Shown here: piece after piece, positions 36,556 through 38,841 of the stretch | How positions within the stretch are numbered: position 1 is the first letter of the stretch | Layout of the letters: each line of letters opens with the position of its first letter | Assembly: GCA_017857175.1 (NCBI GenBank) | Contig: JAFMDS010000014.1 | Span: forward strand, 1-41,953 | Source: Candidatus Nanopelagicales bacterium | GTDB lineage: Bacteria > Actinomycetota > Actinomycetes > S36-B12 | DNA: 41,953 nt | Reading direction: 5' to 3' | The notes under the pieces: model-generated | The model's input: the letters and a program-made list of their open reading frames with translations, nothing else | The model's database searches: none | Told to the model about the DNA's origin: nothing | Program-made: the position numbers and the translations under genes

Positions 36556-37074
36556 TTAAGCCGCTACGGGCACTGGTGGCCCCCGCTGCGACACTGAATT
36601 TTCAACTACAAAGGAATGACACGTCTCAAGGAAAGAGAATCGAATGCACAACTGGTTCGATGGAGATTTAAAAATAAAAATGATCGAAGCAAAGATTGTG
36701 CGGAAGAAAGTAGACCACGCACTTACCGCTGAGTCAGCGAAAATAACAACCGCAGTTGCCCCGAAAGCAGCCAGAGTGTGCCAAGTCAACATGCCCGCGG
36801 ACGGCAACAGCGAATGCATCGAAGAATCACCATGGGATGCGGCGGTCATGAGAACGTGCATGAGCAACTGGCCACCAAGGAGTGCGACAAATAATGCCGG
36901 CATCCTGCTATGCGCGGCGGGAAGGTGAGCCACGGGCACCGCAAATATGAATGAGGCTAGAAGCACGAATCCTGCGCCCACCGCAGAGACCGAACCTGAT
37001 CCTGCAACATGCGATGCCATGCCAAGGAGTGCGAATACGCCTGTCAGCGCATAAACCCTTGACTTAGTTCTCAC
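36556..37074 (-). CDS. Four-TM membrane protein, probably functionally linked to the PCuAC gene
   Basis: GTG start at 37074; hydrophobic segments; His/Met-containing GGQLLMHVLMTAASHGDSSMHSLLPSAGMLTWHTLAAFG; C-terminus SQRGPPVPVAA; directly upstream of the PCuAC gene on the same strand. Confidence 0.65.
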   Translation of the reverse strand: MRTKSRVYALTGVFALLGMASHVAGSGSVSAVGAGFVLLASFIFAVPVAHLPAAHSRMPALFVALLGGQLLMHVLMTAASHGDSSMHSLLPSAGMLTWHTLAAFGATAVVIFADSAVSAWSTFFRTIFASIIFIFKSPSNQLCIRFSFLETCHSFVVENSVSQRGPPVPVAA

Positions 37075-37127: not shown

Positions 37128-37283
37128 CTAGCCGCAGGAAATGGGGTTCTCATTTGCGTTTTGGGTGCTGGGCTCACAGCCTCCACCGACGCCGGTGCCC
37201 CCAGCCACACCCTCCAGATCGGTGTCGGTGAGATCTTCCTTGTCATCTGGCTGCGGCTCATTCGTGAGTGCAGTATGCACCAC
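37128..37283 (-). CDS. Candidate precursor peptide with double-glycine-type leader (51 aa; absent from ORF track)
   Basis: GTG-start ORF: VVHTALTNEPQPDDKEDLTDTDLEGVAGG / TGVGGGCEPSTQNANENPISCG. Acidic leader ending LTDTDLEGVAGG resembles double-Gly (LSxxELxxVxGG) leaders; begins 17 bp after the MFS stop. No strong SD seen. Confidence 0.5.
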   Translation of the reverse strand: MVHTALTNEPQPDDKEDLTDTDLEGVAGGTGVGGGCEPSTQNANENPISCG

Positions 37284-37300
37284 GCACGGATCGACACTGC

Positions 37301-38776
37301 CTAGATGTGCACAGCATTCGCCGCGTCACCTTTAGCCATGTCCTTCTTGCTCATGTTTACCAGGCTCACCCAAATGACTGCTGCGCCGACCAAGATGATC
37401 GCGCTCCAACCAAAAGCATCGGTGAATCCTTCAACGAGCGCATCAGGCGTTGGGCCCTGAAGTTGATTTGCCACGATGTAGGCCGCGGTGGCAGATGTCG
37501 CAATGGTGTTCAGGAATGCAATGCCCACCGAGCCACCGATTTGCTGGCTGGTGTTCAAAACGGCAGACGCAACACCAGCATCTTGGTCACCAACGGCGTA
37601 TAGCGCCGTTGCCGAAAGCGGCACAAAGATCAATCCCATTCCGAGGCTGATGAGAATCATGGGAGGCAAAATTCCAGAAACATAAGAAGTGTCGGCCGCC
37701 ATCTTTGTGAACCAGAAAAGTCCGGAGATGGCAAGTATGAATCCACCAAAGGTGACAAAGCGTGGTCCAAAACGTGGAAGTAATTGACTCGCAATTCCCG
37801 CACTGACAATGACTCCCGCAGAGAATGGCAGGAAGAGCATCCCGGACTTGAGGGCGGAATAACCCAAGACTGCTTGGAAGAAGTAGGTGAGGAAAAGGAA
37901 CATCGAGAAAATTCCGATACCGACGAAGAAACTTGCAAGATATGCGCCACCACGGTTGCGATTACGAATTATCTTGAGTGGCAATAGTGGATGCGATGAA
38001 CGCATTTCAATGAAGATGAACAGCGCTAGCAGCGCAAGACCAAGACCCATGAAGCCGAGGGTTGTTTGGCCGGTCCAACCATTGGCTTCAGCCTGTGTGA
38101 TTCCGTAAACCAAAGAGACAAGACCGAGAGTCGCGGTGACGGCGCCGGGGATGTCGTACTTAGTATTTCCTTGGGCACGACTTTCATGCACAAATGGGAT
38201 TGCGAGGAGCACCGCAATAATTGCAATCGGAACGTTCACCCACAGGGTCCAATGCCAGGAAACGAATTCGGTGAGAACGCCACCCATGACCAGACCAATT
38301 GCCGCGCCGGCACCCGAGATCGCGCCGTACACACCAAATGCTCGTGCACGCTCTTTGGATTCGGTGAAGGTGACTGAGATCAAACTGAGCGCCGCGGGTG
38401 CCAGTAGCGCAGCGAAAACTCCCTGCAAACCACGAGCCGCGAAAAGCATTCCACTGTTGACGGCCATTCCACCGAGCGCTGAAGCGCCCGCAAATCCCAG
38501 TAGGCCCACAATCAGCATTCGCTTGCGACCGGCGTAGTCAGCGATGCGCCCACCCAACAGAAGCAGGCCACCAAACGCGAGGGTGTAAGCCGTCACGACC
38601 CACTGACGCTGTACGTCATCAAAGCCGAGGTCAGCTTGCATTGTGGGCAATGCGATGTTCACGATTGACGCGTCAAGAACCACCATCAACTGAGCAATCG
38701 CGATCACGATCAGTGCGCGCCACCGGTTGGGGTCGGGAACAACAGCAGAGGAAAGGGGGGCAGCAGACGTGCTCAA
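37301..38776 (-). CDS. MFS drug/solute exporter (DHA2, EmrB/QacA-like, 14 TM)
   Basis: ALIVIAIAQLMVVLDASIVNIALPTMQADLGF, RWVVTAYTLAFGGLLLLGGRIADYAGRKRMLIVGLLGF, long hydrophobic C-terminal half. Probable TTG start at 38776 with SD CAGGAG; the ORF track starts at 38812. Confidence 0.88.
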   Translation of the reverse strand: MSTSAAPLSSAVVPDPNRWRALIVIAIAQLMVVLDASIVNIALPTMQADLGFDDVQRQWVVTAYTLAFGGLLLLGGRIADYAGRKRMLIVGLLGFAGASALGGMAVNSGMLFAARGLQGVFAALLAPAALSLISVTFTESKERARAFGVYGAISGAGAAIGLVMGGVLTEFVSWHWTLWVNVPIAIIAVLLAIPFVHESRAQGNTKYDIPGAVTATLGLVSLVYGITQAEANGWTGQTTLGFMGLGLALLALFIFIEMRSSHPLLPLKIIRNRNRGGAYLASFFVGIGIFSMFLFLTYFFQAVLGYSALKSGMLFLPFSAGVIVSAGIASQLLPRFGPRFVTFGGFILAISGLFWFTKMAADTSYVSGILPPMILISLGMGLIFVPLSATALYAVGDQDAGVASAVLNTSQQIGGSVGIAFLNTIATSATAAYIVANQLQGPTPDALVEGFTDAFGWSAIILVGAAVIWVSLVNMSKKDMAKGDAANAVHI

Positions 38777-38841
38777 AAGAACTCCTGACAGACGTAAAGT
38801 GATAACGCACATCAGATAGTTGCACGTTCAAGTTCCCCCCA

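Follow-up and report, generated by a model that had tools for sequence, protein, structure and literature searches.

The stretch of DNA considered here (hereafter the window) spans 41,953 nucleotides and is one contig, C41, of a Nanopelagicales assembly, G000, which totals 2.0 Mb and is 98% complete and not closed. It raises the question of whether the gap between an MFS transporter gene and the next membrane-protein gene holds a gene for a small secreted peptide and, if so, which exporter and which modifying enzyme would handle the product. The initial annotation had placed a 51-amino-acid ORF with a double-glycine (GG) leader in this gap, and its account of the position proved exact: the ORF starts 17 bp past the MFS stop at 37301, on the same strand (Table 1), in a stop-free frame of 65 codons.

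Table 1 Features of the peptide locus and the sibling peptides of the same genome
Feature	Position	Strand	Basis or context
GG-leader precursor peptide ORF, 51 aa, GTG start	37128..37283	minus	profile match and codon usage
Acidic leader, 29 aa, VVHTALTNEPQPDDKEDLTDTDLEGVAGG, motif D-L-x-D-x-x-L-E-x-V-x-G-G	37197..37283	minus	alignments A1-A3
Core, 22 aa, TGVGGGCEPSTQNANENPISCG, two Cys, the second near the C terminus	37131..37196	minus	sequence
MFS transporter gene, upstream neighbour	37301..38812	minus	PF07690, E = 6e-54
172-aa membrane protein, downstream	36556..37074	minus	no Pfam match; directly after the MFS gene in relatives
Sibling peptide, leader MTDEKGTNEVDPVADLSDEELEEASGG, core TGNNSYCNIHGCLG	C23		downstream of a tRNA-Val gene
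Sibling peptide, leader MKNPAENNGSGDYDLSDEVLDGAAGG, core GDAPVKSASNIPC	C64		
Sibling peptide, frame broken in a G run just past GG	C69		near ribosomal-protein genes

A profile (A3) of 17 leaders from other genomes, none of them from G000 and NHLP-type leaders included, recovered the window peptide from the whole of its own genome at E = 9.5e-5, a test that is partly circular because the members of A3 had originally been collected via similarity to the window peptide. Within the window, the peptide scored 23.3 bits, compared with 5.0 for the runner-up ORF and 5.2 for the top reversed ORF, and it was the single GG-leader ORF of this type according to A3. Independent support for the leader family comes from members that lie beside LanM genes, one of them with an NHLP-type leader. 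The codon usage of the peptide frame was likewise gene-like, at +0.20 bits per codon (0.14-0.33 for the long neighbours), the highest score among the six frames over its stretch, with a rival 77-aa ORF at -0.12. The GTG start lacks a clear Shine-Dalgarno sequence; several relatives do have one. As the profile match and the codon usage together place the ORF beyond chance, the small gene is, judging from its sequence, very probably real.

The last residues of the leader are LTDTDLEGVAGG, and three residues of the motif, its second Asp and the two Gly, do not vary across the alignments A1-A3. The GG-ended motif also occurs in NHLP-type leaders from this bacterial family, and the same leader type stands beside LanM genes, both of which bear out the earlier comparison of the leader with those of NHLP-type and type 2 lanthipeptide precursors. 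The core offers Thr1, Ser10, Thr11 and Ser20 besides its two Cys, and thus the Ser/Thr and Cys that a class II lanthipeptide requires. Among 73 collected leader peptides, a set unscreened for false positives, the core contains Cys in 48, placed within the last four residues in 36. No Pfam or PHROGs family matched the window peptide, and all of its NCBIfam matches were insignificant, with none to Nif11. A tblastn search of 85 family genomes, a check that the initial annotation had proposed, gave weak matches (best E 0.018), several of which fall on small ORFs whose leaders end alike and whose cores contain Cys; no orthologue was found among the relatives, and none of 72 pattern stretches in viral contigs held a relative of the peptide.

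The window peptide has company in its own genome, which encodes four short GG-leader peptides in unrelated places (the window, C23, C64 and C69), one of them frameshifted. Their leaders span 25-29 aa, and the three siblings adjoin genes unrelated to the neighbours in the window. The frameshift at C69 could be real decay or an assembly error; near 1476-1541 of that contig (L128, L133), an alternative frame continues into a short Gly-rich, Cys-ended core. A further leader match, at C23:14589, was dropped as it resembles, by eye, a YebC-family protein. Series of long NHLP-type precursors occur in two related genomes, at G006:C4, G006:C18 and G004:C5 (L108, L122 and L105), where closely similar leaders joined to unrelated cores are a sign of rapid core change.

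Candidate exporters lie elsewhere in G000. The absence of a C39 peptidase or maturase from the window was correctly noted at the outset, and the rest of the genome contains two C39 peptidase-ABC genes. Each of their sites, C45 and C16, has a row of HlyD-like, C39-ABC and ABC genes and thus the gene set of an NHLM system. The top NCBIfam families of the ABC proteins at C45 and C16 are TIGR03796 and TIGR03797 (NHLM export), with scores below the curated cut-offs, and TIGR03794 is the best family of the HlyD-like protein at C16 only. The Cys-His-Asp triad is intact in the C39 peptidase at C45; at C16 (L083:7755-10076, minus strand), Met stands in place of the catalytic Cys. The same substitution occurs at G010:C8 and G004:C14, with Gly in a second copy at G003:C44. 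The C39 domain at C16 may serve for binding only.

The distribution of leaders follows that of C39 genes. At genus level, each of the six genomes that encode C39 contains four leaders or more, as against one at most in each of the six that do not (Fisher P = 0.0011). In the wider family (82 genomes), a strong leader was present in 11 of 25 with a C39 match versus 7 of 57 without (P = 0.0024, uncorrected for shared ancestry), an association that is weaker than in the genus and, given these seven genomes, imperfect. Haft et al. 2010 (PMC2887384) made the same connection for NHLP precursors, arguing that it is the transporter for which such leaders are conserved and noting that precursors may sit far from modifying genes.

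The reading we regard as probable is that of an orphan secreted-peptide precursor, cleaved at GG and exported by the C45 NHLM system, with a two-Cys peptide of 22 aa as the product. From the ORF itself, its leader similarity, the family members, the exporter genes and their catalytic residues, we infer expression, cleavage, export and bridging along the following lines. The acidic leader would be recognised by the NHLM-type exporter at C45, whose C39 peptidase would cut behind Gly-Gly; export of the 22-residue core would fall to the ABC permease and the HlyD-like protein that partners it. This core would be one of a hypervariable set carried under a common leader and encoded as scattered single genes. 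Searches of G000 for LanM, YcaO and SPASM radical-SAM proteins found no maturase, so the product would either stay unmodified, perhaps closed by a Cys7-Cys21 disulfide, or depend on a modifying enzyme that the assembly lacks or whose type escaped recognition; with a LanM, the core could instead carry thioether rings. By analogy, a likely role of such a peptide would be to antagonise bacteria nearby or to signal to them.

The maturation step is where the most serious alternative enters. Overlapping with the orphan-precursor reading and differing in that it specifies this step, it holds that the peptide is a class II lanthipeptide precursor whose Ser/Thr would be dehydrated and joined in rings to both Cys before export by a ProcM-like LanM that dropped out of the assembly or exists in other strains. 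Three genus mates (G003, G004 and G006) do encode LanM enzymes of 1039-1136 aa, in the first and the last of them close to NHLM genes, and the LanC part of these enzymes bears the CCG zinc motif that marks the promiscuous ProcM-like group in picocyanobacteria (PMC10783134). Moreover, the same leader type adjoins LanM in three peptides at G052:C275 and in one at G004:C19, whose leader is of NHLP type (TIGR03793, E = 9.4e-11, 41.4 bits; curated cut-off 50.9), and the residues of the window core would suit such chemistry. Against this, both LanM domains (PF05147 and PF13575) went unmatched in the G000 assembly, an absence that is not proof at 98% completeness and could be an assembly accident. 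In addition, the place that LanM occupies in G003 and G006, just downstream of the ABC pair, is taken at C45 by a hydrolase, and tblastn over the own-genome loci examined gave only noise for a LanM remnant. We thus consider a lanthipeptide possible but rather unlikely. Neither YcaO nor a SPASM radical-SAM protein was found in the G000 assembly; the C39 peptidase, which the initial annotation had also proposed to look for in the rest of the genome, turned up twice, and the suggestion of an orphan precursor held. Two relatives, G010 and G003, encode YcaO proteins, some of which have leader peptides in their vicinity; from sequence, this suggests that azole-forming enzymes in the genus are served by this leader type as well. 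The YcaO frames, of 708-781 aa, lie at G010:C36, C96 and C14 and at G003:C3 (L183-L186).

The lack of a maturase would also fit a relic, in which LanM was lost in the lineage and the scattered precursors are now decaying, as the frameshifted sibling at C69 and the start without a clear ribosome-binding site might indicate. We judge this improbable: leader motif and frame are intact in three of the four peptides, both exporters are open as ORFs, the C69 frameshift could stem from assembly, and G010 and G011 also combine exporters and many leaders with no LanM match.

Export by the adjacent MFS protein, which the common strand and the 17-bp gap had suggested, is largely refuted by synteny. Orthologous MFS proteins in five relatives are 76-80% identical, and the peptide is missing from that place in all of them: G002, G003 and G007 have the MFS gene, a short gap and then the same membrane-protein gene, G011 has a different gene there, and in G001 the peptide is absent from the short stretch available after the MFS gene. 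The order of MFS gene and 172-aa membrane protein recurs at L039, L040, L098, L099 and L100. Of the public records, L040, L039 and L041 match by eye the sequences of G002, G007 and G001, respectively, and do not count as extra cases; the MFS relatives come from Nanopelagicales and unclassified Actinobacteria MAGs. As the MFS orthologues occur without it, the peptide is local to G000, and neither its pairing with the MFS gene nor the proposed translational coupling is supported. The sibling peptides, moreover, have other neighbours, and a GG leader suits a C39 exporter. Judged from these sequences, the MFS gene is a neighbour outside the peptide's system, and the chance that it exports the peptide is very slight. 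Equally implausible is that the ORF stays open between the two genes merely by chance, which its shortness, its absence from this place in relatives and the unclear ribosome-binding site would allow but which the genome-wide profile match and the coding-like codon usage contradict.

The orphan precursor can be set beside three known systems. As in NHLP/NHLM systems (TIGR03793, TIGR03794, TIGR03796 and TIGR03797; PMC2887384), the leader ends in a C-terminal GG motif, the short core is hypervariable, the genome encodes a C39-ABC, ABC and HlyD-like exporter and the precursor may be remote from other genes; unlike in those systems, the window leader has 29 aa and no nitrile-hydratase-like domain. 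TIGR03793 aligned to the window peptide over profile positions 62-77 only, with 12.4 bits and E = 0.11, short of the cut-off of 50.9; no curated family model admits the short leader, and the peptide is formally outside NHLP. The prochlorosins and synechococsins of picocyanobacteria, whose prochlorosin genes lie scattered across the genome (PMC10783134), share with the peptides described here the scattered single precursors, the common leader with diverse Cys-containing cores, the CCG-type LanM (here in relatives) and the C39 and HlyD partners. They differ in that the window peptide has no Nif11 match, the host is actinobacterial and G000 has no LanM match and four precursors only. Class II bacteriocins and GG-leader peptide pheromones likewise combine a GG leader, a C39 exporter and a two-Cys core and need no maturase, but the window peptide has no significant family match to them and no recognised immunity gene or sensor kinase beside it. 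The system is thus of a known kind, that of NHLP/NHLM precursors, in a prochlorosin-like layout; we found no description of it for this order, and a full-text search of open-licence papers returned none joining Nanopelagicales and lanthipeptides.

More tentatively, the whole family might possess a system akin to the prochlorosins: a single leader code, recognised by an NHLM exporter, would carry dozens of scattered, fast-changing cores, with LanM in some species, YcaO in others and no known maturase in G000, so that the repertoire would be decoupled from the modifying enzymes; we put this forward as a conjecture that may well prove wrong. Scattered, unannotated precursors of this kind would escape cluster-based mining, and they offer a concrete route to the secreted peptides of these relatives of abundant aquatic actinobacteria. 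Natural genomes that have exporters and no LanM match would allow a test of whether it is the exporter, and no modifying enzyme, for which the leader is retained. In one of them, G010, a protein is encoded a few kb before the NHLM exporter at C8 (L091:1826-3265), the start of which may resemble that of the mycofactocin glycosyltransferase.
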